Source: a virus | Length of the DNA stretch: 32,316 bases | Virus record (IMG/VR): IMGVR_UViG_3300042691_032333 | Coordinates: 1-32,316 of that record | Strand: one strand, 5' to 3' | In this document: piece by piece, positions 1,274-12,926 of the stretch | How positions within the stretch are numbered: the first letter of the stretch is position 1 | Layout of the letters: each line of letters begins with the position of its first letter | Translations under genes and position numbers: made by a program | The notes under the pieces: model-generated | What the model saw: only the letters and a program-made list of their open reading frames with translations | What the model was told of the DNA's origin: nothing | Databases searched by the model: none

Positions 1274-1279
1274 GTCATT

Positions 1280-1489: not shown

Positions 1490-1492
1490 CAT

Positions 1493-1565: not shown

Positions 1566-1583
1566 CTTTTTATAGGAGAGTCT

Positions 1584-1979: not shown

Positions 1980-1985
1980 TAGTAT

Positions 1986-2057: not shown

Positions 2058-2064
2058 TTAGTTT

Positions 2065-2138: not shown

Positions 2139-2164
2139 TGTTTACAGAGTTTAAATGAGACAAT

Positions 2165-2458: not shown

Positions 2459-2542
2459 GGGAGTGCTGCAGAGTTGGAGGACTGCACCAGACTGTAAATC
2501 TGTCGCTGAGAGGCCTAGTAGGTTCGAATCCTTCCACTCCCA
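2459..2542 (+). tRNA. tRNA-Tyr(GTA)
   Basis: Acceptor GGGAGTG/CACTCCC is perfect. The anticodon loop CTGTAAA gives GTA. The long variable arm is as expected for bacterial tyrosine tRNA, the T arm is GTAGG-TTCGAAT-CCTTC and the discriminator is A. Confidence 0.95.
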
Positions 2543-2545
2543 TAT

Positions 2546-2619
2546 CCGCATCAGGTGTAAGTGGTGTGCACGCTGCTCTGATAAAGCAGAGGTACTTGGT
2601 TCAACTCCAAGGATGCGGA
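2546..2619 (+). tRNA. tRNA-Ile(GAT)
   Basis: Acceptor CCGCATC/GATGCGG is perfect. D stem GTGT/GCAC, anticodon arm CTGCT-CTGATAA-AGCAG giving GAT, T arm CTTGG-TTCAACT-CCAAG, discriminator A. Position 8 is A instead of the usual T. Confidence 0.92.
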
Positions 2620-2624
2620 CTTAT

Positions 2625-2698
<74 letters not shown>

Positions 2699-2704
2699 CT
2701 GTAA

Positions 2705-2812
2705 GTTTATGTGATAGCTATTTGGAGCATCGGGTGAAATACCCCGGTAATGTAGTTCAATTCTACACATGCGCTGGGCAAGCGAAGAGGTTCAACTCCT
2801 CGTCACATAAAC
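2705..2812 (+). ncRNA. tRNA-like RNA with expanded D region (Leu-like)
   Basis: A perfect 10-bp terminal helix (2705-2714 with 2803-2812) encloses a T arm (GAGG-TTCAACT-CCTC), a class II variable-arm-like hairpin (CGCT-GGGCA-AGCG) and a perfect arm TGTAG-TTCAATT-CTACA that could be an anticodon arm (CAA in this register). Between acceptor and that arm lie 36 nt instead of about 19. They contain an extra hairpin (GCT-ATTTGG-AGC) and a segment resembling the D arm of the tRNA-Leu(TAA) at 5236 (GGTGAAAT..CGGTAA). It could be a degenerate leucine tRNA, a tRNA carrying an insertion, or a tRNA mimic. Confidence 0.6.
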
Positions 2813-2820
2813 TTTAATTT

Positions 2821-2903
2821 GGTGCGATGACTGAGTGGCTGAAAGTAGGAGTCTGCAAAACTCTAGGAGAAATCCCACGCCAGTTCGAATCTGGCTCGCA
2901 CCT
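2821..2903 (+). tRNA. class II tRNA-Cys(GCA)
   Basis: Acceptor GGTGCGA/TCGCACC is perfect. Anticodon arm GGAGT-CTGCAAA-ACTCT gives GCA, the T arm is GCCAG-TTCGAAT-CTGGC and the discriminator is T, the usual Cys identity base. The body looks like a serine tRNA: D arm ACT..GAGTGGCTGAA..AGT and a 14-nt variable arm with GGA-GAAA-TCC stem-loop. Ordinary tRNA-Cys is class I. Confidence 0.88.
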
Positions 2904-2918
2904 TTTATTGGAGATTAT

Positions 2919-3197
2919 ATGAAGGACATTTTGTTTGCAAAGCCAAAATCATTATCAGAAACAGAAGAACACAAAATCGTTAAACGAAAATGGTGGGCAG
3001 TTATATTACTGATTATTGGTGGTATCATGCTGGCGGGAAGAATTCCTAATGCACCACCAGCAATACCCTACGCATTATTTTTCTTTGGGCATGGTGGTAT
3101 GTTACATAGTTTTTGGAATAAGCATGATTATCCAATGGTTATTGTAAATTCTGTGTGGTTGTTGATTGATGTACTTGGTATAATTCGATGGATGTAA
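2919..3197 (+). CDS. small multi-pass membrane protein, unknown function
   Basis: The start is the ATG at 2919, 5 bases after a GGAG ribosome-binding site; an in-frame extension upstream runs through tRNA-Cys and is not coding. The 92-residue product has a charged, cytoplasmic-looking N terminus (1-22), then three hydrophobic segments (about 25-40, 47-63 and 72-90). It is not recognised as a named family. It overlaps the DUF1289 gene by 10 bases, so the two are likely translated together. Confidence 0.72.
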   Translation: MKDILFAKPKSLSETEEHKIVKRKWWAVILLIIGGIMLAGRIPNAPPAIPYALFFFGHGGMLHSFWNKHDYPMVIVNSVWLLIDVLGIIRWM

Positions 3198-3367
3198 AAT
3201 CCCCATGTATAAAGATATGTAAGTTACACGACGATGTTTGTGTTGGATGTTTTCGTACTATTGATGAAATTAAGAATTGGAAACACTCTTCCAAAAAAGA
3301 AAAATTACAAATACTTGACAATATAAAACAACGAGGTTATAATGTTATCGAAGATGACACCAAATGA
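3188..3367 (+). CDS. DUF1289-family Cys-rich small protein
   Basis: This 59-residue ORF starts at the ATG at 3188 inside the end of the preceding gene. Its N terminus reads SPCIKICKLHDDVCVGCFRT followed by IDEIKNW, the signature of the DUF1289 family: four cysteines in a C-x3-C-x6-C-x2-C arrangement and a conserved 'GC.R...EI..W'. Family members are short bacterial proteins suspected to bind a metal or Fe-S cluster; the biochemical role is unknown. The gene overlaps its upstream neighbour by 10 bases and the DsbA-like gene by 26, an unusually tight nest. The C-terminal half also carries a promoter-like sequence (3315-3343). Confidence 0.78.
   Translation: MDVKSPCIKICKLHDDVCVGCFRTIDEIKNWKHSSKKEKLQILDNIKQRGYNVIEDDTK
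3315..3343 (+). promoter_or_regulatory. consensus sigma70-type promoter inside DUF1289 gene
   Basis: TTGACA (3315-3320), a 17-bp spacer and TATAAT (3338-3343) match the consensus exactly. Transcription would start near 3350, downstream of the first possible start codon of the DsbA-like gene (3342) and just before a second in-frame ATG at 3354. Confidence 0.5.
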
Positions 3368-3593
3368 TAAGTTAAAATTAACTGCTGCATTAAAAGATAT
3401 GAGTACATCGATGACTCGTGTTGACGCGGAACGAGATTTGCAAAAGAATATCAAGGGTGATATTTGTAAAGAGTTGGATTTGAGTAAAAAGGTTTTTTCA
3501 AAATTAGCAAAGGTATATCACAGGCAGAACTTTGCTGATGAAGTAGCAACACATCAAGAGTTTGAAACATTGTACGAAGAAGTTACGAAGTAA
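3342..3593 (+). CDS. dsbA: DsbA-like dsDNA-binding late transcription protein
   Basis: This 83-residue protein resembles T4 DsbA, a small double-stranded-DNA-binding protein that assists gp55-dependent late transcription. From memory of that family, the shared pattern is an N-terminal helix with K-L-K, a central 'I..D...I....K.EL.[VL]..K.F..L...YH..N' stretch (here about residues 31-64) and an acidic C terminus ending in a 'LY[DE].V' motif (here TLYEEVTK). A GAGG ribosome-binding site precedes the ATG at 3342. A second in-frame ATG at 3354 could serve a transcript from the overlapping promoter. A gp55-like gene at 15355 supports a late-transcription role. Confidence 0.75.
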   Translation: MLSKMTPNDKLKLTAALKDMSTSMTRVDAERDLQKNIKGDICKELDLSKKVFSKLAKVYHRQNFADEVATHQEFETLYEEVTK

Positions 3594-3601
3594 TGTAGGT
3601 T

Positions 3602-3673
3602 GGAGCATTGGTCTATCGGTTAGGACGACAGCCTGTCACGCTGTAAGGACGAGTTCGACTCTCGTATGTTCCG
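3602..3673 (+). tRNA. tRNA-Asp(GTC)
   Basis: Acceptor GGAGCAT/ATGTTCC pairs with one wobble. The anticodon loop CTGTCAC gives GTC, the T arm is ACGAG-TTCGACT-CTCGT and the discriminator is G. Confidence 0.95.
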
Positions 3674-3688
3674 TTTTTGGAGATTACT

Positions 3689-4738
3689 ATGAAGGTATTG
3701 ATATTATCTGTTTGTGGTAAATTAAACGAACCTGAAGAAACAAAATATCTTAATTTATATTTTGCTTCACTCAAAAAGTATGTAGTTCCATTTTTTGAAA
3801 CTAAGGTTGTTTTACTGACAACGTATAAAATTGAAAATTTGGAAGATAGTTTACTTCGTAAACGAATCAAAGAATTTGAATTGGATGATGTGGTATCTCT
3901 ACATACAATTGATGATTTACAATTACCAATAAAATCATTAGAAATTATAAAATCCTATGATTGGTTTTCACGAATAGGTATGCATATGAATATTTTATAT
4001 GATTATGCTAAACTTAATAATTTTTTCGATGCAGATTGGATATTTCACACAGACACCGATAGTGAATTTTTACAAGATTTTTCTTCATGTTTAAACTCAT
4101 TAAATGAATTAAAAAAGGTAGAACCGGGGATATTTATTTCTCTGGCTGGAGATGCTTGGCCACCAAGTATAATATACGAGGGAACAGAATATCTTATAAA
4201 GCAACCGGATCGTGTTGATTTTTATGATGAAGAAACTGTTAGACGACAAGAGTTTATTGTAAAAATTGAAGAACGTAGATTACCAGAAGACGATTATAGA
4301 AAAAAACAAAATCATATAACGTTTTCACCGGCACAGATGAAAATTAGAAATGATTTTGTTGGTATGTCACGGAGAGCAGCAGACGTTTGTCAATTTAATT
4401 GGTCAACTGCATATTTTCCAACACATAACTTTCATGAATCGGAACCATTTGATAAGTTTTGGCCACAAAAAGCAATTCGTATCGAAGAACAGGGTACAGA
4501 TGTACGTATTGTAGATGTTCCAAAAATACATATAAATTATCACATGGGTGGTATGTTATTGTATAAATTTCAAAATAATGAACTTCCTGTAACAAAGATA
4601 CAATTTCAAGGATATTCACGAATGATGTTACATCATAGTTCGGGGTGGTTCCAATCTCACTATACGGAACGTTCGTTGGAATCTTTGAATGCAAACTATA
4701 GTGATACAAAAGAAATTTGGAATAAAGATTTTGAATAA
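3689..4738 (+). CDS. glycosyltransferase-like protein (GT-A type, DxD)
   Basis: The ATG at 3689 follows a GGAG ribosome-binding site by 6 bases. The 349-residue protein begins MKVLILSVCGKL, like a first beta strand, and carries HTDTDSEF at residues 120-127. D122-T-D124 fits the DxD motif by which GT-A glycosyltransferases bind the metal and nucleotide-sugar. Later features, such as AGDAWPPS near 155 and HINYHMGG in the C-terminal part, resemble acceptor-site loops but are not diagnostic. Phages use such enzymes on host glycans, DNA or virion proteins; the substrate is not readable. It lies alone between tRNA-Asp and tRNA-Ser. A DxD-containing protein of another class is the alternative. Confidence 0.62.
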   Translation: MKVLILSVCGKLNEPEETKYLNLYFASLKKYVVPFFETKVVLLTTYKIENLEDSLLRKRIKEFELDDVVSLHTIDDLQLPIKSLEIIKSYDWFSRIGMHMNILYDYAKLNNFFDADWIFHTDTDSEFLQDFSSCLNSLNELKKVEPGIFISLAGDAWPPSIIYEGTEYLIKQPDRVDFYDEETVRRQEFIVKIEERRLPEDDYRKKQNHITFSPAQMKIRNDFVGMSRRAADVCQFNWSTAYFPTHNFHESEPFDKFWPQKAIRIEEQGTDVRIVDVPKIHINYHMGGMLLYKFQNNELPVTKIQFQGYSRMMLHHSSGWFQSHYTERSLESLNANYSDTKEIWNKDFE

Positions 4739-4744
4739 AAGTTT

Positions 4745-4828
4745 GGAAGGTTCGCATAATGGTATTGCACCGGTCTACTAAACCGACGACCTTAATCGGT
4801 CATGTGGGTTCGAATCCCTCACCTTCCG
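4745..4828 (+). tRNA. tRNA-Ser(ACT)
   Basis: Acceptor GGAAGGT/ACCTTCC is perfect. Anticodon arm CGGT-CTACTAA-ACCG gives ACT. The class II variable arm is GACC-TTAATC-GGTC and the discriminator is G, all consistent with serine identity. A34 is very unusual for an AGY-reading tRNA, where GCT is normal. Confidence 0.88.
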
Positions 4829-4874
4829 TTATAATGTATTAAAATATAATTAATATCTATTTATAACGACCCCC

Positions 4875-4903
4875 TTGACAACAGTAACTCTATGATGTAT
4901 ATT
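4875..4903 (+). promoter_or_regulatory. sigma70-type promoter for downstream tRNA block
   Basis: TTGACA (4875-4880), a 17-bp spacer and TATATT (4898-4903). The following ACTAGTGTTGAGTGAA is nearly identical downstream of the promoter at 8721-8749 (ACCAGTGTTGAGTGAA), which argues that the element is real. It lies in a gene-free gap and points at tRNA-Lys. Confidence 0.72.
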
Positions 4904-4950
4904 ACTAGTGTTGAGTGAAACGAAACGATGTTTGACAACAGAAACACAAC

Positions 4951-5023
4951 GCCTCCATAACTCAATTGGCAGAGTAGCTGGCTTTTAACCAGTAAGTTGT
5001 AGGTTCAAGTCCTACTGGGGGCA
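4951..5023 (+). tRNA. tRNA-Lys(TTT)
   Basis: Acceptor GCCTCCA/TGGGGGC pairs with one wobble. The anticodon loop CTTTTAA gives TTT, the T arm is GTAGG-TTCAAGT-CCTAC and the discriminator is A. Confidence 0.95.
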
Positions 5024-5031
5024 TTTGTTGT

Positions 5032-5198
5032 AGAATCTACCCGCGGTCGGAACACGGTTCCCGCGTCCACACGATTTATTTCTCTATCGGCCCTTACGTG
5101 AGACACCACTACAACGGTGCATGGGAAGATACCGTAAGCACGCCCTCGTGAATGGAAAACATGTGTGAGGATGGCACCATGAAGAATAGGTAGATTCT
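5032..5198 (+). ncRNA. structured RNA A (about 167 nt), novel
   Basis: A perfect 10-bp helix (5032-5041 with 5189-5198) closes the region. Inside are a double hairpin (5042-5045/5062-5065 and 5049-5053/5057-5061) and a stem 5093-5098/5133-5138 capped by CACC/GGTG (5104-5107/5116-5119). GAGGATGGCACC near the 3' side resembles a motif in RNA C. It is followed by a small GGATG/CATCC hairpin before tRNA-Leu. No start codon with a credible ribosome-binding site opens a long frame here. Not a known family as far as I can tell. Confidence 0.6.
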
Positions 5199-5235
5199 TC
5201 TCTATAAAATGAGAGGATGTAGTATCATCCAATTT

Positions 5236-5318
5236 GCTCCGATGGTGAAATCGGTAAACACAGGAGACTTAAAATCTCCCGCCCCAAAGGCTTGTCGGTT
5301 CGATTCCGACTCGGAGCA
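5236..5318 (+). tRNA. tRNA-Leu(TAA)
   Basis: Acceptor GCTCCGA/TCGGAGC is perfect. Anticodon arm GGAGA-CTTAAAA-TCTCC gives TAA. A normal class II variable arm (GCC/GGC), T arm GTCGG-TTCGATT-CCGAC and discriminator A. Confidence 0.96.
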
Positions 5319-5335
5319 CTATTTATTAAGATGTT

Positions 5336-5408
5336 GCGGGTGTAACTCAGTTGGTAGAGTACATGCTTGCCAAGCATGATGTCGCGGGTTCGAGCCCCGC
5401 CATCCGCT
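5336..5408 (+). tRNA. tRNA-Gly(GCC)
   Basis: Acceptor GCGGGTG/CATCCGC pairs with a wobble. Anticodon arm CATGC-TTGCCAA-GCATG gives GCC, the T arm is GCGGG-TTCGAGC-CCCGC and the discriminator is T, typical for glycine. Confidence 0.96.
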
Positions 5409-5423
5409 TATACGGAGAATTAT

Positions 5424-6053
5424 ATGAATATACCATATACAAGTTTTTTAATCAATAAATTAGTTAGTGAAAATAATTATAAAAATTATTTAGAGATTGG
5501 AATTTCATCTGGAAATACATTTCGTCAAGTTATATGTGAAACAAAACACGGAGTAGATCCAAATGGTGGTGACCCTTCAAAACCAGATGTACCATCGTTT
5601 ATAACATATCCATATACGTCCGATGTGTTTTTTGAACAACACATTACGCAGAAATATGATATAGTGTTTATCGATGGATTGCATCACGCAGACCAAGTAT
5701 TACGTGATATATACAATAGTATTAAACACCTAAATGTAGGTGGTACAATTTTACTACACGATACAAAACCGTGGTCGGAATTGATGCAACGCAATCCACA
5801 ACCAGACGAAGTAGCAAGAGGTGGTATATGGACAGGGGATGTGTGGAAAGCTGTTGCAAAGTTTCGTAGTGTAGAAACAAAATACACATGTGAAACAATA
5901 GATTTTGATTTAGGAATTTCGGTTATACGAGAAGGTAATGCAGTACCAATTAGTATTCCATCTGATGAAGATTTAACATACGAATACTACTTGACAAATA
6001 AAGATTACATTTTAAATTTAGTATTATCCGATACATATTTAAATGGATATTAG
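5424..6053 (+). CDS. SAM-dependent methyltransferase (class I)
   Basis: The real start is the ATG at 5424, after CGGAGAA; a longer in-frame reading begins inside tRNA-Gly and is not coding. The 209-residue protein is a compact Rossmann-fold methyltransferase of the Methyltransf_24 type. Motif I is LEIGISSGNTF (residues 23-33). A post-I acidic loop around 42-47 contains Asp45. VFIDGLHH (81-88) is the motif II strand with a metal- or substrate-binding His pair, and LLHDTKPW follows at 110-117. In phages such enzymes often sit with glycosyltransferases and modify sugars, but the acceptor is unknown. Its TAG stop shares its last base with tRNA-Ala. Confidence 0.82.
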   Translation: MNIPYTSFLINKLVSENNYKNYLEIGISSGNTFRQVICETKHGVDPNGGDPSKPDVPSFITYPYTSDVFFEQHITQKYDIVFIDGLHHADQVLRDIYNSIKHLNVGGTILLHDTKPWSELMQRNPQPDEVARGGIWTGDVWKAVAKFRSVETKYTCETIDFDLGISVIREGNAVPISIPSDEDLTYEYYLTNKDYILNLVLSDTYLNGY

Positions 6054-6123
6054 GGCTCGTAAGCTAACGGGAAACTGACGCCTTTGCACGGCGTACTTGT
6101 GGGTTCGATTCCCACCGAGTCCA
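6053..6123 (+). tRNA. tRNA-Ala(TGC)
   Basis: Acceptor GGGCTCG/CGAGTCC pairs with one wobble. Anticodon arm ACGCC-TTTGCAC-GGCGT gives TGC, the T arm is GTGGG-TTCGATT-CCCAC and the discriminator is A. Its first base is the last base of the methyltransferase stop codon. Confidence 0.94.
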
Positions 6124-6132
6124 CTGTTAATT

Positions 6133-6218
6133 CCAAGGGTGGCCCAGCTTGTATACAAGTATACTCGCGCTTGGTAGTCGAGTTGTCCGACATTTTACGA
6201 AAGGGCTTCGTAGACAAC
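6133..6218 (+). ncRNA. structured RNA B (two stem-loops), novel
   Basis: The first element, 6133-6174, is closed by CCAAG/CTTGG and contains GGGTGGCC and a self-complementary CTTGTATACAAG. The second, 6182-6218, is GTTGTC/GACAAC with an inner perfect TACGAA-AGGGC-TTCGTA hairpin. It fills the gap between tRNA-Ala and tRNA-Val. There is no terminator-like T run, so it is probably released from the array transcript. Confidence 0.55.
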
Positions 6219-6221
6219 AAA

Positions 6222-6295
6222 GGACGGTTAGCTCAGTTGGTTAGAGCACTTCGTTTACACCGAAGGGGTCGGGGGTTCGAGCCCCTCACTGTCCA
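6222..6295 (+). tRNA. tRNA-Val(TAC)
   Basis: Acceptor GGACGGT/ACTGTCC pairs with one wobble. Anticodon arm CTTCG-TTTACAC-CGAAG gives TAC, the T arm is GGGGG-TTCGAGC-CCCTC and the discriminator is A. Confidence 0.96.
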
Positions 6296-6315
6296 CTTTA
6301 CATTAGGAGGATATT

Positions 6316-6525
6316 ATGAAAGCACGTGTAGTTGAAATGTTACGAACGCAAGCAGAAGCAGAACGACAGAAGGCACTTCTCTCATTGGACTTGTTGATGA
6401 ATGTTCCTGTTGGGATTGGTGACCATTCTACCGGTGATTTCTATAAGAACGCAGAAGAAGCATTACAGATGCTTGTTGATGCCGAAGATAAGTTGGAAAC
6501 ATTGCATAAATATTTTTCTGAATAA
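6316..6525 (+). CDS. small helical protein, unknown function
   Basis: This 69-residue ORF is preceded by a strong AGGAGG 7 bases before the ATG. The product is almost entirely predicted helix, with a short break around GIGDHSTGD (residues 34-42). This two-helix layout (1-32, then 43-68) could form a hairpin or coiled coil. No membrane segment and no recognised family. It is the only protein gene between tRNA-Val and RNA C. Confidence 0.72.
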   Translation: MKARVVEMLRTQAEAERQKALLSLDLLMNVPVGIGDHSTGDFYKNAEEALQMLVDAEDKLETLHKYFSE

Positions 6526-6531
6526 AAAATA

Positions 6532-6645
6532 AAAGATGTTATGCGTAAAAGGAACAGATAGATATTGGACGAGGGTGGCACCTCATAATGCAGGTTTAAA
6601 GTAAGAGCCAATCCTAATGTTCTGCCACCGGCCTCTGACATCTTT
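6532..6645 (+). ncRNA. structured RNA C with pseudoknot, novel
   Basis: Nested helices: 6532-6539/6638-6645 (AAAGATGT/ACATCTTT), 6552-6556/6618-6622, 6564-6568/6608-6612, and hairpin GAGG-GTGGCA-CCTC at 6571-6584. The hairpin's GGTGGCA (6574-6580) is exactly complementary to TGCCACC at 6623-6629, so a pseudoknot or an alternative state is possible. The hairpin sequence GAGGGTGGCACC resembles the core of the T-box motif (AGGGTGGNACC). The TA-rich stretch after the upstream gene does not code. Confidence 0.6.
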
Positions 6646-6649
6646 AAAT

Positions 6650-6850
6650 TTGGGTGGCTCCCTCAAAGGAAACTGTCGTCAAGGCGTACCTTGAACATCC
6701 AATAGTGCTGATACAGGGGGCGAAACAGCACTGGCAAAATCGGTAGCAAACAAGAACTGAAATAGGTTCCGTCACTACCGTCGTGTTTACTTTCCGAGTT
6801 CACGGATGCAAACTCCGACGAAGATGAGGGCCTTCGTAAAAAAGACCTCG
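6650..6850 (+). ncRNA. structured region D (multiple hairpins), novel
   Basis: A series of hairpins fills this gap with no protein gene: GGG-TGGCT-CCC (6652-6662); AAGG-CGTA-CCTT (6681-6692); GTGCTG/CAGCAC (6705-6710/6726-6731); CGGTAG/CTACCG (6741-6746/6775-6780) with inner GAAC/GTTC; CGTCG/CGACG (6779-6783/6816-6820) with inner GAGTT/AACTC; and CGAAG/CTTCG (6819-6823/6832-6836). It ends just before tRNA-Gly(TCC). It may be one RNA or several processed pieces; boundaries are uncertain. Confidence 0.5.
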
Positions 6851-6852
6851 CC

Positions 6853-6924
6853 GCACGTGTCATATAATGGCCATTATCCTAGCCTTCCAAGCTAGAGACG
6901 CGGGTTCGATTCCCGCCACGTGCT
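6853..6924 (+). tRNA. tRNA-Gly(TCC)
   Basis: Acceptor GCACGTG/CACGTGC is perfect. Anticodon arm CTAGC-CTTCCAA-GCTAG gives TCC, the T arm is GCGGG-TTCGATT-CCCGC and the discriminator is T. Confidence 0.96.
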
Positions 6925-6926
6925 CT

Positions 6927-7015
6927 AAACATAACGATAACCACCAACCCACTGGTAGTAGGCAGACAGAACGAATGGAATGTCCTATGTCGTAAGTCCT
7001 ATCGTTATGTTTTTC
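6927..7015 (+). ncRNA. structured RNA E with 13-bp closing helix
   Basis: A perfect 13-bp helix (6927-6939 with 7000-7012) encloses about 60 nt containing ACCA/TGGT and GACA/TGTC pairings. The 3' arm runs into TTTTTC, so the element could also end transcription. It begins two bases after tRNA-Gly(TCC) and precedes the small gene at 7041. Confidence 0.55.
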
Positions 7016-7040
7016 TTTATGTAATACAACCAACGAGGTC

Positions 7041-7175
7041 ATGATGATTGCACAAATTATTTTGTTCTTAGGTATAATTGCGGGTATTATCTCATTATCT
7101 CTTTGCTGGGCATCTGGAATAGATTATATGAAATCTAAGCACCCCGATTACAAGGGTGATGATTTTCTTAATTGA
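7041..7175 (+). CDS. 44-residue single-pass membrane protein
   Basis: A short ORF with CGAGG 6 bases before the first of two consecutive ATGs. The product has one strong membrane segment (about residues 3-23, MIAQIILFLGIIAGIISLSLC), then a charged tail ending HPDYKGDDFLN. No family is recognised. Its position between two structured RNAs in the tRNA array is typical of other small membrane genes here. Confidence 0.6.
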   Translation: MMIAQIILFLGIIAGIISLSLCWASGIDYMKSKHPDYKGDDFLN

Positions 7176-7178
7176 TTA

Positions 7179-7448
7179 GTAGTACAGCAGGACGAGTCTT
7201 ACTCGGTTAGTGGTCGTATGGAAAGGCATCTGAAAACTGTAAAGTGGTTCTGTTGAGGAGTTGTAATAGTGGTGACGCGAATAATCGTACCCATCACCCC
7301 ACAATACAGCTAAAACCCCCTGGGGTTAGGATGAATAACGACGATGTATAGGGGTGGTCATTGCCCGACGATTTCGGGGTGATACACAGATAAGAGTTGC
7401 AACTACTTATCACCCGATTGCAGGACAACACCTTTCCCGCTGTACTAC
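7179..7448 (+). ncRNA. structured RNA F (about 270 nt), novel
   Basis: A perfect 10-bp helix, GTAGTACAGC (7179-7188) with GCTGTACTAC (7439-7448), closes 270 nt without a protein gene. Inside are CGAGT-CTT-ACTCG next to the closing stem, a GTGGTGA..TCACC.CAC pairing, a CTAAAACCCC/GGGGTTAG hairpin, and a GGTGATA/TATCACC stem near the 3' side that includes a self-complementary GTTGCAAC. I looked for the conserved blocks of RNase P RNA, tmRNA and 6S RNA and did not see them. Confidence 0.62.
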
Positions 7449-7488
7449 ACATACTCCCCGTGGGCATACATGGGTGATAGGTAAATAG

Positions 7489-7517
7489 GTCTTGGTGCTC
7501 AACATGCCGGCCAAGAC
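7489..7517 (+). ncRNA. perfect 7-bp hairpin after RNA F
   Basis: GTCTTGG (7489-7495) pairs with CCAAGAC (7511-7517) around a 15-nt loop. There is no T run, so it is not an ordinary terminator. It may protect the 3' end of RNA F or belong to a separate small RNA before tRNA-Leu(CAA). Confidence 0.4.
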
Positions 7518-7545
7518 AACAGAATGATAATTGATAATGTTTTAC

Positions 7546-7619
7546 GCCCTTGTGACGGAATTGGCATACGTACAGGTCTCAAAAACCTGGTTTTGTGGGT
7601 TCGACCCCCACCGAGGGCA
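7546..7619 (+). tRNA. tRNA-Leu(CAA), short variable loop
   Basis: Acceptor GCCCTTG/CGAGGGC pairs with one wobble. Anticodon arm CAGGT-CTCAAAA-ACCTG gives CAA. The D arm GACGGAATTGGCA is leucine-like, the T arm is GTGGG-TTCGACC-CCCAC and the discriminator is A. The variable region is only GTTTT, not the long class II arm. Confidence 0.9.
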
Positions 7620-7623
7620 TCAT

Positions 7624-7698
7624 AGAGGATTAGCGTAGTCCGGTTATCGCGTCTGCTTTGGGAGCAGAAGGTCGGGGGTTCGAATCCCTCATCCTCTA
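7624..7698 (+). tRNA. tRNA-Pro(TGG)
   Basis: Acceptor AGAGGAT/ATCCTCT is perfect. Anticodon arm TCTGC-TTTGGGA-GCAGA gives TGG, the T arm is GGGGG-TTCGAAT-CCCTC and the discriminator is A. Confidence 0.95.
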
Positions 7699-7714
7699 TT
7701 TAATGGAGAAGTAA

Positions 7715-8380
7715 ATGCGAGTACTAGTATTTTCTACACCACGAAGTTGTAGTTCTTATGTGATACACATACTATCGAATGTGTTTGATATAAAAAATTA
7801 TAACGAATTATTTGACCAATCGGTTAAACCTGAAGAGTTACCAGAGTTGGTGGAAACTAAATTGTATGGTACCGACGATTACGCAGTAAAGTTCATGTCG
7901 GGTTATTTTACAATGGGTTGGTTGGATTTTGATGATATTAAATGGGATATGTTTGACCACATAGTGTTTACCGAACGAGATGATATTACATCGCACATTG
8001 CAAGTTGGTACGCTATATTTTCTTACAATCAAGATTTAAATCAAAAGTTAGTACGTGGTGAAGATGTAGTAGAAGATATACAAGATAGATTTTTTGATAA
8101 TGAATTAATTTCGTTTAAAGAAACGTTTAAAAATTATAACGTATACAAAAATAAACTATTGAAATTGTATCCAGAAAAATGTATTACGTTAAAATATGAA
8201 TTATTTCAAAAACCTATCGCAGAATATTTGCCTATCTTAAATGAAATAACAAAGTTTAACTTTGAAGAAAAACATCTGTATGAGAAAATACGTAGAAAAA
8301 TAGACTACAGAAAAGTTTTTTCCAATTATGACAAACTTGAAGAAATAGTAACCTCTTGGGGAAATGTACATGATAATTGA
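7715..8380 (+). CDS. sulfotransferase-like P-loop protein
   Basis: This 221-residue protein starts with MRVLVFSTPRSCSSYVIHIL. Residues 6-14 (FSTPRSCSS) match the 5'-phosphosulfate-binding loop of PAPS-dependent sulfotransferases (usually 'xxPRSGTT/S'), with Cys for the common Gly. The segment VFTERDDITSHIASWYA, at about residues 89-105, fits the 3'-phosphate-binding region (R..x..S..S). Such enzymes move sulfate from PAPS to a sugar or other hydroxyl. A GGAG ribosome-binding site precedes the start. It overlaps the following NTF2-like gene, suggesting joint translation and perhaps one pathway. The acceptor is unknown. Confidence 0.75.
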   Translation: MRVLVFSTPRSCSSYVIHILSNVFDIKNYNELFDQSVKPEELPELVETKLYGTDDYAVKFMSGYFTMGWLDFDDIKWDMFDHIVFTERDDITSHIASWYAIFSYNQDLNQKLVRGEDVVEDIQDRFFDNELISFKETFKNYNVYKNKLLKLYPEKCITLKYELFQKPIAEYLPILNEITKFNFEEKHLYEKIRRKIDYRKVFSNYDKLEEIVTSWGNVHDN

Positions 8381-8699
8381 TAATATAGTAAATGAATACT
8401 TCGATGCATTTACCAAAAAAAATATAGGACGATTGTCGGAACTATATCACGATGATGTTTCATTAAATGAATGGAATTCGTCTATCTTCGAAGGTAAGTC
8501 TGCAGTCATTGAAGCAAATAAAAAGTTATTTGAACAGTTTGAAAAAATTGCAATAGTAGTAAAGACAAAAGGAATTACAGCAAATCGTTCTATTAATGAA
8601 ATTTTAGTTGTCTTGGATGGAACAAGTGTTAATGTTGTAGACGTAATCGAAATTGTGGATAATAAAATAAAAAATATAGTAGCATACAGAGGATTTTAA
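8370..8699 (+). CDS. NTF2/SnoaL-like small protein
   Basis: About 109 residues with the hallmarks of an NTF2-like fold: an N-terminal helix, then F.....GRLSELYHDDVSLNEWN, a GKSAVIEANKKLFEQF helix, and alternating strands to the end (INEILVVLDGTSVNVVDVIEIVDNKIKNIVAYRG). Members are small isomerases, hydrolases or binding partners with a cone-shaped pocket. The ATG at 8370 has GGGGAA at good spacing; the ATG at 8364 would add two residues but lies too close to it. It overlaps the sulfotransferase-like gene by 11 bases and may act on the same product. Confidence 0.68.
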   Translation: MIIDNIVNEYFDAFTKKNIGRLSELYHDDVSLNEWNSSIFEGKSAVIEANKKLFEQFEKIAIVVKTKGITANRSINEILVVLDGTSVNVVDVIEIVDNKIKNIVAYRGF

Positions 8700-8720
8700 T
8701 CAATCCTTAACAAAAGACGC

Positions 8721-8749
8721 TTGACAATGGGGTACAAACTATGTATATT
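8721..8749 (+). promoter_or_regulatory. sigma70-type promoter for tRNA-Glu block
   Basis: TTGACA (8721-8726), a 17-bp spacer and TATATT (8744-8749), followed by ACCAGTGTTGAGTGAA, nearly the same as after the promoter at 4875. The leader ends with a GAGATA/TATCTC hairpin (8802-8823) just before tRNA-Glu. Confidence 0.75.
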
Positions 8750-8833
8750 ACCAGTGTTGAGTGAATGACGGTGACCCGAAGCACAGTCGAGGGAATTAAA
8801 TGAGATAACGTGCAAAATATCTCAACCGTATAT

Positions 8834-8905
8834 GCGGCGTTCGTCTATCGGTTAGGACATGGCCCTTTCAAGGCCAGAAGGCGGGTTCGATTCCCGCACG
8901 CCGTA
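8834..8905 (+). tRNA. tRNA-Glu(TTC)
   Basis: Acceptor GCGGCGT/ACGCCGT pairs with one wobble. Anticodon arm TGGCC-CTTTCAA-GGCCA gives TTC, the T arm is GCGGG-TTCGATT-CCCGC and the discriminator is A. Confidence 0.95.
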
Positions 8906-8913
8906 CTTAGCAT

Positions 8914-8978
8914 CACGGTAGTAATGATATCTTACTCGTAATCCGTGAGCAGTCCACCGCCTAGTCGTGCCGGTGGAC
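8914..8978 (+). ncRNA. structured RNA G (two hairpins)
   Basis: CACGG (8914-8918) pairs with CCGTG (8943-8947). It is followed by a perfect 8-bp hairpin GTCCACCG/CGGTGGAC (8952-8959/8971-8978) with an 11-nt loop. It fills the gap between tRNA-Glu and tRNA-Ile(TAT) and has no coding frame. Confidence 0.5.
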
Positions 8979-8983
8979 ACTAA

Positions 8984-9058
8984 CCGCCACGAGCCAGCTA
9001 GGTTGAAGGTGCCGATCTTATAAATCGGAGATGCCGGGTTCAAATCCCGGGTGGCGGA
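8984..9058 (+). tRNA. tRNA-Ile(TAT)
   Basis: Acceptor CCGCCAC/GTGGCGG is perfect. Anticodon arm CCGAT-CTTATAA-ATCGG gives TAT, the T arm is CCGGG-TTCAAAT-CCCGG and the discriminator is A. It would read the ATA codons that are frequent in this genome. Confidence 0.95.
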
Positions 9059-9103
9059 CTGGTTATGTACATTTTCAATAGTAACCCTTGTATAGTAGTT
9101 ATC

Positions 9104-9177
9104 GGTCCCTTAGCTCAGTCGGTTAGAGCAGCGAACTCATAATTCGAAGTGCGGGGGTTCAAGTCCCTCAGGGACCA
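9104..9177 (+). tRNA. tRNA-Met(CAT) or tRNA-Ile2(CAT)
   Basis: Acceptor GGTCCCT/AGGGACC is perfect. Anticodon loop CTCATAA gives CAT, the T arm is GGGGG-TTCAAGT-CCCTC and the discriminator is A. The body resembles bacterial tRNA-Ile2 (lysidine-modified CAT) at least as much as elongator methionine tRNA; the sequence alone does not settle which. Confidence 0.9.
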
Positions 9178-9191
9178 CTTTGGAGAAACAA

Positions 9192-9284
9192 ATGCCACAT
9201 CCACGAAAATGCGGTAAAGGTCGTAGAAAAGTAGGTTCTAAGAAACGAAGAAATCGTTGGAAGAACAGAAAACGTAAACATTAA
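9192..9284 (+). CDS. 30-residue, extremely basic peptide
   Basis: A short ORF with GGAG 8 bases before the ATG, between tRNA-Met and RNA H. The product, MPHPRKCGKGRRKVGSKKRR followed by NRWKNRKRKH, has 16 Lys or Arg in 30 residues, one Cys and one Trp. It has the look of an arginine-rich RNA-binding peptide or a tiny ribosomal-protein-like factor, but I cannot name a family. The ribosome-binding site and unbroken basic composition argue for a real gene. Being embedded in an array of tRNAs and structured RNAs makes an RNA partner plausible; that is inference. Confidence 0.6.
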   Translation: MPHPRKCGKGRRKVGSKKRRNRWKNRKRKH

Positions 9285-9292
9285 AATATTCT

Positions 9293-9427
9293 CGTCAACT
9301 TCGTAGAGTGATTTGACGTTAAATTCAGAACTCTACCGTCCGACCTATCTGACGTAGAGATAGGTGCTTGGCAACGTGTCGGATGTTGCAAAAGGTTAAG
9401 GGGAGCGGGTCTAGACCGCGCGACATC
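9293..9427 (+). ncRNA. structured RNA H with H-type pseudoknot
   Basis: CGTCAA (9293-9298) pairs with TTGACG (9313-9318). The loop's GTAGAGT (9303-9309) pairs with ACTCTAC (9330-9336) downstream, giving a classical H-type pseudoknot with perfect stems of 6 and 7 bp. It is followed by TCCGA/TCGGA enclosing CCTATCT/AGATAGG (9344-9350/9358-9364) and a GCGG/CCGC hairpin (9405-9408/9416-9419). GATGT/ACATC may close the 3' part. It precedes tRNA-Gln. Confidence 0.55.
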
Positions 9428-9467
9428 CTTGGGTAATTGGAAACTACCTCAATTGTCACCCCTCTAT

Positions 9468-9539
9468 TGGCCCATAGTATAACGGTTATTACGGCGGACT
9501 TTGGATCCGCATATCATGGTTCGATTCCATGTGGGCCTA
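9468..9539 (+). tRNA. tRNA-Gln(TTG)
   Basis: Acceptor TGGCCCA/TGGGCCT has an unpaired T1-T72 end, compatible with the weak first pair preferred by GlnRS. Anticodon arm GCGGA-CTTTGGA-TCCGC gives TTG, the T arm is CATGG-TTCGATT-CCATG and the discriminator is A. Confidence 0.94.
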
Positions 9540-9543
9540 TAAC

Positions 9544-9612
9544 GCGGTTTTGGTGTAATGTAGCACGGTTGGCAACCAGCTGACAGGTCCGGTGCAAGTC
9601 CGTGAAACCGCT
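9544..9612 (+). ncRNA. tRNA-like RNA without a normal anticodon loop
   Basis: The acceptor GCGGTTT/AAACCGC is perfect and the D arm GTG-TAATGTAG-CAC matches that of tRNA-Trp minus one G of the D-loop GG pair. The T loop TGCAAGT has the same G55 oddity as tRNA-Trp. The anticodon region pairs as GTTGGC/GCTGAC with only AACCA in the loop, or has A instead of T at position 33. It may be a decayed tRNA-Trp copy or a tRNA mimic. Confidence 0.6.
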
Positions 9613-9627
9613 CTTTATTGTTTTTGT

Positions 9628-9699
9628 CGCAGAGTAGAGCATCGGTAGCTCGCCACGCTCATAATGTGGAGGTAGGTGGTTCGACTCCACCCTCTGCCA
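9628..9699 (+). tRNA. initiator-type tRNA-fMet(CAT)
   Basis: The first acceptor pair is mismatched (C1 against C72) with the other six paired (GCAGAG/CTCTGC), the hallmark that lets initiator tRNA be formylated. Anticodon loop CTCATAA gives CAT. The D arm GAGC-ATCGGTA-GCTC and following CGCC resemble bacterial initiators. T arm GGTGG-TTCGACT-CCACC, discriminator A. Confidence 0.82.
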
Positions 9700-9726
9700 T
9701 GTAGTAAAATTTAAAAGGAGAACTTT

Positions 9727-9903
9727 ATGCGTAAATTTATGATTATGGCAGTACTGGGAGTAACAGCGTGTTCAGGTGGTGAAACAAAGAGTACAGACAC
9801 TCCGGTGGTTGTAATCGATAGTACATCAACACCATCAGATACATTAACTAAGTTACCTACCGATACAACATTCCTACCGCCAGATACGTCGATAGCACGG
9901 TAA
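9727..9903 (+). CDS. 58-residue predicted lipoprotein
   Basis: A short ORF with AGGAG 8 bases before the ATG, too short for most gene callers. The N terminus MRKFMIMAVLGVTACSGG is a typical lipoprotein signal: Arg-Lys, a hydrophobic core and the lipobox V-T-A-C with Cys15 as the lipidated residue. The mature part is a short Thr/Ser/Asp/Pro-rich stretch, like a flexible spacer. After cleavage it would be anchored in the envelope with its tail in the periplasm. Phage lipoproteins of this size often act in superinfection exclusion or lysis; neither is shown here. Confidence 0.68.
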   Translation: MRKFMIMAVLGVTACSGGETKSTDTPVVVIDSTSTPSDTLTKLPTDTTFLPPDTSIAR

Positions 9904-9905
9904 TA

Positions 9906-9989
9906 ATAAGAATGACACCGTGCGAGGTGTGACGCACTTGTTGTGGTGGCAGGAAGAACAGAATACTGTTTGAAAGGTGTCATTCTTAT
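9906..9989 (+). ncRNA. structured RNA I with 14-bp closing helix
   Basis: A perfect 14-bp helix (9906-9919 with 9976-9989) encloses hairpin GTGCG/CGCAC (9920-9924/9933-9937) and hairpin AACAG-AATA-CTGTT (9957-9970), giving a compact multi-branch RNA of 84 nt. It starts three bases after the lipoprotein stop and ends four bases before tRNA-Ser(TGA). There is no strong T run after the 3' arm. Confidence 0.62.
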
Positions 9990-9993
9990 ATTT

Positions 9994-10076
9994 GGAAGTA
10001 ACCCGGCTGGATGAGGAACTTGTCTTGAAAACAAGCGGGCCGAAAGGTCTTGGGGGTTCGAGTCCCTCTGCTTCCG
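9994..10076 (+). tRNA. tRNA-Ser(TGA)
   Basis: Acceptor GGAAGTA/TGCTTCC pairs with one wobble. Anticodon arm CTTGT-CTTGAAA-ACAAG gives TGA. A class II variable arm (GGCC-GAAA-GGTC), T arm GGGGG-TTCGAGT-CCCTC and discriminator G. Confidence 0.95.
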
Positions 10077-10083
10077 TTGTAAC

Positions 10084-10156
10084 GCCATCATAGCTCAGTT
10101 GGTAGAGCAGCTGATTTGTAATCAGCAGGTCGGGGGTTCAAGCCCCTCTGGTGGCT
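10084..10156 (+). tRNA. tRNA-Thr(TGT)
   Basis: Acceptor GCCATCA/TGGTGGC pairs with one wobble. Anticodon loop TTTGTAA gives TGT, the T arm is GGGGG-TTCAAGC-CCCTC and the discriminator is T. It is the last tRNA of the array. Confidence 0.95.
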
Positions 10157-10186
10157 CTGAAATCAATCTAGTGTTATATTTATAAA

Positions 10187-10217
10187 GGACTCGCACCTTA
10201 ATGGTGGAGTCCTTTTT
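10187..10217 (+). terminator. intrinsic terminator closing the tRNA array
   Basis: GGACTC-G-CACC / GGTG-GAGTCC with loop TTAAT forms a 10-bp stem with one bulged G, followed by TTTTT. It lies 30 bases after the last tRNA and upstream of the hsp20 leader. Confidence 0.88.
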
Positions 10218-10261
10218 CCGTGGCGCTCGTGGTGAGGCCACATAACCATAGGAGGTCAATT

Positions 10262-10741
10262 ATGACTCGTTTAGTTTTACGCCCATTTGGAACCAATGTT
10301 TTGAATTCTCGTGATAATTTCATTTCTACCTTTGATAAGGTGTTTGATGAAATCGCACGAAACAGTTTCCCCGACATTTATCAAAATCTTGGGGTTGAAC
10401 CATTTGGAAAAGCAGCATATCCAAAGGTTAATGTAATTTCTGAAAACGATTCTGTAGTAATTGAGGCAGAATTGGCGGGATATAAAAAGGACGAAATTGA
10501 TATTTCTGTCCAAGATGGGGTTCTCACTATTTCTGGTAAGGCATCACAACACACCGAACAAACTGATAAAGCAGTTTATCTCCTTCGTGAGTTGAAGCGC
10601 AGTGCTTTCAGCCGATCGTTCAAGTTAGGTGACCAGTTGGATGTTTCCGATGTAGATGCGAAGTTCAATAATGGGTTACTTACAATTACAATCCAAAAGT
10701 TGACGAAGGAGCCAGAAACAAAAAAGGTTATGATTAAGTAA
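10262..10741 (+). CDS. Hsp20/alpha-crystallin small heat-shock protein
   Basis: The ATG at 10262 follows AGGAGG by 6 bases; a longer in-frame reading starts in the leader and is not supported. The 159-residue protein has a variable N-terminal arm (1-50) and an alpha-crystallin domain (about 51-145). Family marks are YPKVNVISENDSVVIEAELAG, the YKKDEIDISVQDGVLTISG block (about residues 74-92) and FNNGLLTITI, the conserved G-x-L near the domain end. It acts as an ATP-independent holdase oligomer in the cytoplasm. Hsp20 genes are a known feature of marine T4-like phages, where they may protect virion proteins during assembly. Confidence 0.93.
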   Translation: MTRLVLRPFGTNVLNSRDNFISTFDKVFDEIARNSFPDIYQNLGVEPFGKAAYPKVNVISENDSVVIEAELAGYKKDEIDISVQDGVLTISGKASQHTEQTDKAVYLLRELKRSAFSRSFKLGDQLDVSDVDAKFNNGLLTITIQKLTKEPETKKVMIK

Positions 10742-10766
10742 TCACAATTACTAACAGGAGGTCAGA

Positions 10767-10817
10767 ATGATGTGTAGCTGTCTAATTTGTACTTGTCATT
10801 CACATATAACCGATTAA
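10767..10817 (+). CDS. 16-residue Cys-rich micropeptide (leader ORF 1)
   Basis: AGGAGG (10756-10761) precedes two consecutive ATGs at 10767 and 10770. The peptide MMCSCLICTCHSHITD has a C-x-C-x2-C-x-C-H pattern capable of binding a metal. The stop codon lies at the foot of the following hairpin (10806-10842), so translation of this ORF could melt that hairpin. Too short to claim as a gene without expression data; it may simply be a leader peptide. Confidence 0.4.
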   Translation: MMCSCLICTCHSHITD

Positions 10818-10842
10818 CTAGGAGGTGATCTATATCGGTTAT
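10806..10842 (+). promoter_or_regulatory. hairpin presenting an 11-nt perfect Shine-Dalgarno
   Basis: ATAACCGAT (10806-10814) pairs perfectly with ATCGGTTAT (10834-10842). The loop contains AGGAGGTGATC (10820-10830), complementary to the bacterial 16S rRNA 3' tail over 11 nt. The next ATG (10841) lies in the 3' arm, so the hairpin would control its translation. Confidence 0.55.
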
Positions 10843-10882
10843 GTTCATGGCTCAAACCTCTAGCATTTGGGAGAACAAATGA
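10841..10882 (+). CDS. 13-residue ORF (leader ORF 2)
   Basis: It starts at the end of the Shine-Dalgarno hairpin and encodes MFMAQTSSIWENK. Its TGA overlaps the ATG of the next tiny ORF (ATGA at 10879-10882). The ribosome-binding site is exceptionally strong but spaced longer than usual (about 12 bases from the core). Probably a leader peptide, if translated. Confidence 0.3.
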   Translation: MFMAQTSSIWENK

Positions 10883-10941
10883 AATTACACGGGTCGGTTT
10901 CTAATATAGGACCGGCCCGTTTTCGTTGGGAGAATATATGA
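10879..10941 (+). CDS. 20-residue ORF (leader ORF 3) over attenuator
   Basis: It starts after GGGAGAA, encodes MKLHGSVSNIGPARFRWENI and ends in an ATGA overlap with the start of the next gene (10938). It spans the terminator-like hairpin at 10890-10923, so ribosomes on it would disrupt that hairpin. This supports a leader role more than a protein function. Confidence 0.35.
   Translation: MKLHGSVSNIGPARFRWENI
10890..10923 (+). terminator. terminator or attenuator before membrane protein gene
   Basis: CGGGTCGGT (10890-10898) pairs with ACCGGCCCG (10911-10919), nine pairs with one G-U, followed directly by TTTT. It lies 15 bases before the start of the next gene and inside a tiny ORF, so it could be an attenuator controlled by translation. 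Confidence 0.72.
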
Positions 10942-11945
10942 GTAAATTTTTTGATTTTAAAACATTAATATCATTTTCTGCATTAACAATTGCGGGATGT
11001 GCTGCGTTGTTTTCCGTAACGGGTATTGGAACGTTATTTGCGGGTGCGGCAGTATCTGCGATGATAATGGCTAGTGCATTGGAACTGGGAAAATTAGTTG
11101 GTATTTCGTTCTTATATCGTTATTGGAATGAAATTCCAAAAGCATTAAAAACATACATGTCCGTTGCAACCGTAATATTGATATTAATAACTTCTGCTGG
11201 TATCTATGGGTATCTGTCATCGGCATATGCGAAAGTTGCGGCTACACCATTGAAGATGAGTACTGATATTCAAATTTTAAATTCGCAAGTAACCACGTTG
11301 GATGAAGAGATTAAACGAAAAACCACAAGACTTGACCAGATTATTTCATTACGTGGGCAGCAGGAAAATCGTATCGACAATCTTATCAGTAAAAGCACTA
11401 CAGGTTCGAACACATCTATCCGGTCAGCACAAAACAGTTTGACGGAACTAAATAAAACCGCAACACAGTTACAAAAGGAAATTAATCAAACGTCTGCACA
11501 ACGAGATAGTTTGAAAGCAAAAAGTTTGATGACAGAAGTAGATATTAATACCAACTCCGATATTGGAACATTTGTATATATTTCCAAAGCTATTGGTGTT
11601 TCATTGGATACGGTTGTTAAATGGTTTATATTAATTATAGTGTTTGTATTTGACCCATTATCTATTTGTCTAGTATTAGCTTATAATTTCTTGGTTAAAC
11701 GAGGTGATGTTGTTGAAGAACCAACGAAATTAACTATATTTAATGAAAATCCTATAGAGGAATCTATAGAAGTAGAGGAACAGCAACCAGAACCCGCGCC
11801 AGAATCCGCAGAAACCACGCCAGAATCGAACGAATCTATAGAAGTCACTACTTCTACGGATGACCCGTTTCCGCAGTATATGACACGGGCAGAGACAGAT
11901 GATGTTTTGGAAAAATGGTGGGCAAAAAGAAATGGTTTAAAATAG
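10938..11945 (+). CDS. membrane protein with coiled-coil domain, unknown function
   Basis: The ATG at 10938 follows GGGAGAA. The 335-residue protein has hydrophobic segments at about 10-30, 33-52 and 71-94 and a fourth at about 226-248. A soluble, coiled-coil-like domain (about 105-205, heptad-rich, TTLDEEIKRKTTRLDQIISL) lies between segments 3 and 4. The C-terminal tail is long, acidic and Pro/Glu/Ser/Thr-rich and ends in a short basic helix (WWAKRNGLK). The layout places the coiled coil on one side of the inner membrane, held by helices at both ends. I do not recognise a named family. It is preceded by the leader ORFs and attenuator and followed by a terminator, so it looks like an independently controlled unit. 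Confidence 0.8.
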   Translation: MSKFFDFKTLISFSALTIAGCAALFSVTGIGTLFAGAAVSAMIMASALELGKLVGISFLYRYWNEIPKALKTYMSVATVILILITSAGIYGYLSSAYAKVAATPLKMSTDIQILNSQVTTLDEEIKRKTTRLDQIISLRGQQENRIDNLISKSTTGSNTSIRSAQNSLTELNKTATQLQKEINQTSAQRDSLKAKSLMTEVDINTNSDIGTFVYISKAIGVSLDTVVKWFILIIVFVFDPLSICLVLAYNFLVKRGDVVEEPTKLTIFNENPIEESIEVEEQQPEPAPESAETTPESNESIEVTTSTDDPFPQYMTRAETDDVLEKWWAKRNGLK

Positions 11946-12029: not shown

Positions 12030-12926
12030 ATGCCACACAATGTCGGCTATTGTTGTATCAATCTTACTCTACAATCGTCTCGTAATATTACGACCAATCG
12101 TGGTATGATTCAACGTACATTTGAGCAACGTGGTGTCAAATATGCATCGGAGCTAGCACTACAAAATGCACGAGATTTGGTAGAAATTATACGGTGGAAC
12201 GCACAGCAAAATATCAGAGTGTTCCGTATGTCATCCGGTATATTTCCGTGGAACAGTAAGTACCAACTTACTGACCTTCCTGACTACGATAAGATTTCAT
12301 CCACACTACGGCAAGCTGGTAATATTGCTCATGCTACCAAACAACGTGTTTCCGCACATCCTGATCATTTTGTCAAACTAGGGTCGGACAAACCACATGT
12401 TGTTGATAATGCTATTCATGACTTGGAAAATCATTCAACTGTATTTGACCTCATGGGATTGTCTGCTACACATTACAATCCACTTAATATCCATGTTGGT
12501 ATGAATTATTCCGACGAGACTATCAATCGTTGGCTCCGAGCTTTCGATAGATTGTCTGACAATTGTAAGAAACGATTGGTTGTCGAGAACGATGACAAGG
12601 CGTCGGCATTCTCTGTACAACAGTTATACGACAAGATATACAAGCAAATATACACACCGATAACGTTCGACTACTTCCATCATCAGTTTCACCAAGATGG
12701 TTTGACTACAAAAGAAGCAGCAGTGTTGTCTGCATTTACGTGGGACACAACTCCTCTCTTTCACTATAGTGAATCTAAGAATCTCAACGAGGGTGTGTCT
12801 GGTAATCCACGTGCACATGCAGACTATGTGTTCAATAAGATTGATGATTTTGGTTTGACGTTCGATGTAGACTTGGAAGCTAAAGCTAAAGAAAAAGCTC
12901 TATTCAAATACTGGGAGTTACTATGA
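12030..12926 (+). CDS. uvsE: UV damage endonuclease UvsE/UvdE
   Basis: The 298-residue protein matches the UV DNA damage endonuclease family, TIM-barrel enzymes that nick DNA 5' to pyrimidine dimers and other lesions using a metal cluster. Visible marks are the N-terminal GYCCINLTLQ, the FRMSSGIFPW block (about residues 68-77), SAHPDHFVKL with metal-binding His (about 107-116), LNIHVG (about 151-156), RLVVENDDKASAF, with metal-binding Glu (about 182-194), and TFDYFHHQFH with paired His (about 213-222). Length is normal for the family. It overlaps the next gene by ATGA. Phage UvsE is known in marine T4-like phages and would protect the genome from sunlight damage. Confidence 0.92.
   Translation: MPHNVGYCCINLTLQSSRNITTNRGMIQRTFEQRGVKYASELALQNARDLVEIIRWNAQQNIRVFRMSSGIFPWNSKYQLTDLPDYDKISSTLRQAGNIAHATKQRVSAHPDHFVKLGSDKPHVVDNAIHDLENHSTVFDLMGLSATHYNPLNIHVGMNYSDETINRWLRAFDRLSDNCKKRLVVENDDKASAFSVQQLYDKIYKQIYTPITFDYFHHQFHQDGLTTKEAAVLSAFTWDTTPLFHYSESKNLNEGVSGNPRAHADYVFNKIDDFGLTFDVDLEAKAKEKALFKYWELL

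Follow-up and report, generated by a model that had tools for sequence, protein, structure and literature searches.

We find that the transfer RNA (tRNA) array of the uncultured virus IMGVR_UViG_3300042691_032333, whose entire record of 32,316 bases was analysed (hereafter the window), encodes four elements, E1, E6, E8 and E10, that are almost certainly conserved structured RNAs, as judged from compensatory base changes in related phages. A preliminary description of this DNA had proposed that nine intervals between the tRNA genes hold structured non-coding RNAs. Covariation now bears this out for E1, E6, E8 and E10, whereas E3, E4 and E7 stay unproven, and E2 and E5 have only one or two close homologues, with too little variation for a covariation test. 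Covarying pairs, whose absence from related arrays would have spoken against the proposal, were found there.

Results

Related arrays were gathered by scanning viral contigs for Hsp20, a glycosyltransferase-sized protein (window 3677-4738), a 30-residue basic protein and RNA patterns. This gave about 20 distinct arrays, referred to here by L-numbers (L009, L010, L110, L135 and so on), all on related uncultured viral contigs; the window protein at 7715-8380, when used as bait for further arrays, found no relatives. The elements occupy syntenic places in these arrays at 70-95% identity, and the gaps free of open reading frames in 20 arrays form about 10 recurrent clusters and many singletons. 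Pairing was judged against 500 column shuffles and against slid-helix versions; the slid version preserves phylogeny and the shuffle does not remove it. Compensatory changes exceeded both controls for E1, E6, E8 and E10. The covariation score of these four, and of E8', an unrelated RNA at the site of E8 in another phage lineage, was reached by 0 of 500 shuffles, and the slid-helix control fell far below the observed score every time.

The most extensive evidence concerns E1 (Table 1). Among eight close sequences, both partners differ in 12 of 51 pairs, and a covariance model built from them led to distant homologues in L135 and L136 (E values of 1e-23 to 1e-25), arrays without strong BLAST similarity. 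When the distant homologues are included, 19 of 51 pairs are compensatory and 11 homologues carry the full fold; the covariation score is 0.274, compared with 0.160 for the shuffles (0/500) and at most 0.094 for the slid versions. The 7-base-pair (bp) pseudoknot covaries in three of its seven pairs. Its strands read GUUGUAG/CUACAAC in eight sequences, GUUGCGG/CCGUAAC in L135 and L145, and GUUAUGG/CCAUAAC in L136, so that the pseudoknot itself covaries. The copy in L120 has an internal deletion, from which it follows that decay of the element does occur. We did not count a weak match of the E1 model in G006/L137 (24 bits) as evidence. The exact pattern of the E1 core was absent from the bacterial and archaeal genomes scanned, a search that could miss distant copies. 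As a separate observation, a group I intron (RF00028) lies directly downstream of E1 at L135:2150-2336 and L145:5269-5455 (minus strand), where it appears to interrupt tRNA-Leu(taa).

Ten of the 60 pairs of E6 are compensatory across six distinct sequences from five lineages, and the window copy has an extra arm of 78 nucleotides (nt; 7234-7311) that is missing from L110, L010, L039 and L055. E8 has compensatory changes in 18 of 44 pairs over six sequences; the first stem of its possible pseudoknot, CGUCA/UGACG, shows no variation and is a candidate only. For E8' the count is 13 of 48 pairs in ten sequences. E10 is compact, with invariant loops, a folding-energy z score of -5.5 and 8 of 29 pairs compensatory in eight sequences. 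Between L110:7038-7228 and window 9287-9466 the final 75 nt of E8 agree at 98.7% identity while the 5′ half differs strongly, which shows that RNA modules have been exchanged between phages; E6 and part of E8 are found at 96-99% identity in L110, whose tRNA order differs.

Folding statistics of the window sequence alone would have given a different picture. The preliminary description had held that random AT-rich spacers do not give perfect closing helices at such density, and against dinucleotide shuffles the closing arms stood above chance in five of the nine intervals: 5032-5198 (10 bp, p=0.007), 6532-6645 (8 bp, p=0.013), 6927-7015 (13 bp, p=0.003), 7179-7448 (10 bp, p=0.003) and 9906-9989 (14 bp, p=0.003). 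The arms of 6133-6218, 6650-6850, 8914-8978 and 9293-9427 did not exceed the shuffles. Strong z scores were limited, among these intervals, to 9904-9993 (-5.5), 8907-8983 (-3.5) and 6926-7018 (-2.6). The values for E1, E6 and E8 are modest (-1.1 to -1.9), so single-sequence folding could not prove these RNAs and the comparative evidence decided. The boundaries of E1, which takes in the 5′ pseudoknot strand and the 3′ hairpin, and of E8 have been corrected to those in Table 1.

The elements are different RNAs, as had been supposed, with no homology among one another, and hence they do not make up a family in the strict sense; a shared GGTGGC-like motif was rejected, since it is not enriched over shuffles. 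An Rfam search of the window gave gathering-score matches to tRNA only. The elements had no gathering-score match in the window or its relatives, and up to E=5 nothing beyond tRNA-type and chance matches appeared in window 1-11000, so that a self-cleaving ribozyme, an intron or another known RNA found no match in the window at that level. E1, E6, E8 and E10 match no Rfam family, no T4 sequence and no public phage record, and all elements joined gave 0 matches in 50,697 phage records. A hammerhead core, considered for the string CUGAUGA in the E6 of relatives, was rejected: the string has no GAAA partner after it and is broken by the insert of the window copy.

Table 1. Positions of RNA elements, tRNA-type genes and transcription signals in the window
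Feature	Position	Strand	Description
E1 RNA	5027-5235	+	between tRNA-Lys(ttt) and tRNA-Leu(taa)
E1 pseudoknot	5027-5033/5109-5115		strand GUUGUAG with hairpin loop CUACAAC
E1 closing helix	5033-5041/5189-5197
E1 3′ hairpin	5198-5202/5211-5215
E6 RNA	7179-7448	+	closing helix 7179-7188/7439-7448
E8 RNA	9287-9466	+	ends 4 nt before tRNA-Gln(ttg); 3′ domain closed by 9400-9404/9458-9462
E8 possible H-type pseudoknot	9293-9297/9314-9318 with 9303-9309/9330-9336
E10 RNA	9906-9989	+	four-way junction, 13-14 bp closing helix, three hairpins; ends 4 nt before tRNA-Ser(tga)
E2	6125-6221	+	two hairpins between tRNA-Ala and tRNA-Val
E3	6532-6645	+	8-bp closing helix
E4	6650-6850	+	claimed structured spacer; z -0.3, helix not above chance
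E5	6927-7015	+	13-bp closing helix; starts 2 nt 3′ of tRNA-Gly(tcc)
E7	8910-8978	+	two hairpins between tRNA-Glu and tRNA-Ile; z -3.5
Ea, tRNA-like RNA	2703-2814	+	11-12 bp acceptor-like stem; ends 6 nt before tRNA-Cys
E9, tRNA-Gly-like gene	9544-9612	+	without G18G19; T-loop UGCAAGU; anticodon loop CAACCAG
tRNA-Ser(tga), divergent	9994-10075	+	missed by ARAGORN here; aligns with Ser(tga) of relatives; weak tRNA-type matches
Sigma-70-like promoter	4875-4903	+	TTGACA-N17-TATATT, near-consensus; upstream of tRNA-Lys and E1, followed by leader GTGTTGAGTGA
Sigma-70-like promoter	8721-8749	+	TTGACA-N17-TATATT, near-consensus; upstream of tRNA-Glu, with the same leader motif
Likely terminator of the array	10184-10220	+	hairpin and T-run, 9-bp perfect stem (p=0.003), AAAGGACTC...GAGTCCTTTTT; 3′ of the last tRNA

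The gap at 9541-9626 turned out to hold no new fold; it contains an aberrant tRNA-Gly-like gene, E9. We collected 14 distinct homologous sequences, and almost all arrays that span the site contain the gene. The D-loop is without GG in 14/14, the T-loop reads UGCAA in 12/14 (U55 changed to G), and position 33 is variable, with G or A in several sequences and A in the window; E9 thus lacks the G18G19, U33 and U54U55C56 of a normal tRNA. ARAGORN names the counterparts in several relatives Gly(tcc), and the anticodon in the window is ACC, reported to be absent from the tRNA-Gly of every domain of life (PMC8007984). The staphylococcal tRNA-Gly species used for cell-wall bridges are without G18G19 and have altered loops (PMC4052509, PMC8007984). 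E9 resembles the non-proteinogenic staphylococcal tRNA-Gly(UCC) in its loss of G18G19 and its altered T-loop, but it is phage-encoded, and its U33 and even its anticodon vary. On these sequence features it could possibly be a phage-encoded non-proteinogenic tRNA-Gly.

Other parts of the array are less certain. E2 has homologues only in L010 and L039 (88% identity), in which both sides are changed in 4 cells of 28 consensus pairs, the changes coming from two near-identical sequences; this is suggestive of a structured RNA. Homology of E2 in L027 and L041 was unsupported. E5 has a homologue in L010 at 94% with no compensatory change. No homologue of E3 or E7 was found in related arrays, and the structures of both are unproven. 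Only the final 34 nt of E4 match relatives, and E4 is not supported as a structured RNA. A further element, Ea, had not been listed before: its T-arm, GAGG-TTCAACT-CCTC, immediately precedes the 3′ strand of the stem, its 12-bp closing helix has p=0.003 and its fold a z score of about -4.2 to -4.4, and L039 has a close homologue without useful variation. It is possible that E2, E5, E7 and Ea are also structured RNAs of the array.

The array occupies the first 10.2 kilobases (kb) of the window, where ARAGORN finds 23 tRNA genes; beyond these there are one tRNA truncated by the left end and the divergent tRNA-Ser(tga) of Table 1. Small protein genes are interspersed among the tRNAs and the Hsp20 gene comes after the array. 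The proteins of the window are closest to those of Microcystis phage Mel-JY01, Flavobacterium immuto phages and a 484-kb uncultured phage, and one gene (12030-12926) encodes a UvdE-type ultraviolet-damage endonuclease. The 30-residue basic protein MPHPRKCGKGRRKVGSKKRRNRWKNRKRKH (9192-9284) is extremely conserved and possibly RNA-binding; in the arrays examined its gene immediately precedes E8 or E8'. Transfer-messenger RNA genes occur in L031, L024, L039, L041, L056 and L131 and in the records of L110, L019 and L029, with predicted tags such as GNYTLALAA. A conserved structured region of about 450 nt between tRNA-Leu(tag) and tRNA-Lys (L110:8163-8651 and L122:3508-4004; fold z -3 to -4) has no Rfam match and looks like another large phage RNA.

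Discussion

The spacing of the elements suggests how they could be made. The last paired base lies 4-5 nt before tRNA-Gln for E8 (6/6 arrays), 0-2 nt before tRNA-Gln for E8' (10/10) and 4-14 nt before tRNA-Ser(tga) for E10 (8/8), distances that overlap with the spacing between adjacent tRNAs, which is mostly 2-5 nt with a tail to about 22. As the closing helices end 0-14 nt before always the same tRNA, the RNAs seem to fill tRNA-like slots. The ends of tRNAs are generated by cleavage during tRNA maturation, and with such short spacing this cleavage would free discrete RNAs. We suggest that the TTGACA/TATATT promoters drive joint transcription of the tRNAs and of E1, E6, E8 and E10, that RNase P cutting at the 5′ end of the following tRNA, together with a 3′-tRNA nuclease acting on the preceding one, would release these four elements, and that their closing helices would shield the released RNAs from exonucleases. 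The arrangement is consistent with an origin of the elements by processing of the tRNA transcripts, and release as discrete molecules seems probable to us. Once released, the RNAs might work in trans; their most likely target would then be the translation or tRNA machinery, or else host defences directed against that machinery. We put forward such a role in translation or defence tentatively, as the most plausible guess because phage tRNAs are known to counter tRNA-directed defences. Taken as a whole, we lean towards a tRNA operon that encodes unrelated folded RNAs, which would be co-transcribed, excised and trans-acting.

Several observations weigh against this. Each family comprises only 6-11 homologues, and all of these lie on contigs of related uncultured phages of freshwater type; phylogeny remains in the shuffle controls; the RNAs are known here from sequence alone; E3, E4 and E7 have no homologue; and no tRNA adjoins the 3′ side of E6 in the window. 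Furthermore, in the arrays inspected E1 is always upstream of tRNA-Leu(taa), E8 or E8' of tRNA-Gln and E10 of tRNA-Ser, which would also be expected if the elements were cis-acting leaders regulating transcription or processing of the next tRNA. E1 in particular might be an attenuator or riboswitch-like leader: in L135, L136, L120 and L145 it lies directly 3′ of the promoter and leader, a T-run comes after its 3′ hairpin in L135, L136 and L145, resembling an attenuator, and in L009, L010, L039 and L041 a second CUACAAC 3′ of the hairpin might compete with the pseudoknot. On the other hand, E1 follows tRNA-Lys in the window and its nearest relatives and its hairpin there has no T-run, which weakens this explanation, and the competing CUACAAC is absent from the window. 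The hairpin of L135 was not flagged by the terminator scan, although its 9-nt loop exceeds the limit of that scan. No Rfam cis-regulatory family matched in the window, and the elements persist while their neighbours change, as with E6, which is near tRNA-Leu(caa) in most arrays but before tRNA-Thr in L110. We regard cis-regulation, the chief competing explanation and strongest for E1, as unlikely, though by no means far-fetched.

Very improbable, in our view, is that the elements are ordinary spacers and decayed tRNAs, their structure being a by-product of GC-richer spacers and degenerate tRNA genes. The helices of E4 and E8 are not above chance and their z scores are weak, E9 and 9994-10075 are tRNA-derived, and the L120 copy of E1 is internally deleted, but the compensatory changes in E1, E6, E8 and E10 contradict this reading, though it may yet apply to E3, E4 and E7. 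Even less credible are selfish or mobile elements, such as intron-like insertions homing into tRNA arrays: the near-identity of E6 and part of E8 in L110 despite its different tRNA order, and the presence of group I introns in this phage group, would fit them, but intron and ribozyme families have no match in the window, the positions are mostly syntenic, no gene is interrupted, no nuclease gene accompanies the elements, and the exchange is compatible with ordinary phage recombination.

Returning to excised, trans-acting RNAs, a bolder version would join the unrelated structured RNAs, the aberrant tRNA-Gly and the tRNA-like RNAs into an RNA toolkit, transcribed together with about 25 tRNAs as a single polycistronic RNA and jointly acting in trans on host translation or tRNA-based defence. 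We give this less than an even chance. If true, the toolkit would correspond, at the level of RNA, to an accessory-gene island and would have arisen as phages swapped RNA modules.

The closest known setting is the tRNA cluster of phage T4, where rnaC and rnaD, the stable RNAs known as species 1 and 2, of 139 and 119 nt, are annotated within a few nt of tRNA-Arg. These are late RNAs validated by Northern blotting (PMC9697503) whose role is unknown (PMC3014915). E8, E8' and E10 are likewise small structured RNAs in a phage tRNA cluster, a few nt from a tRNA, and Ea shares with T4 rnaC a canonical T-arm at its end. Whereas T4 has two such RNAs at one end, for which the cited sources describe no pseudoknots, at least four, perhaps eight, are interleaved with the tRNAs here. 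Covariance models of E10, E8 and E1 had no match in T4, and there was no sequence match either. The ornate, pseudoknotted GOLLD and ROOL RNAs of phages are often found beside tRNA islands (PMC12286853), but they are mostly several hundred nt long, compared with 80-270 nt here, and no sequence similarity was detected; their Rfam models gave no gathering-score match in the window or its relatives, and none up to E=5 in window 1-11000. Phage tRNAs themselves evade retrons and anticodon nucleases (PMC11555353, PMC10264068), and E1, E6, E8 and E10 share this genomic setting but are not tRNAs.

In conclusion, these RNAs are of a known kind by their setting in a phage tRNA array, yet they represent new families, unusual both in number and in being interleaved. 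The question of the stable RNAs in the T4 tRNA cluster has been open for decades, and a different phage group now offers several with folds backed by covariation, which brings structures open to testing, natural variants, an allele already deleted in nature (L120) and evidence that modules are exchanged. A role in cis would make E1 a new regulatory RNA for the control of phage tRNA genes; should the RNAs work in trans, phages would be packaging non-coding RNA effectors together with their tRNAs.

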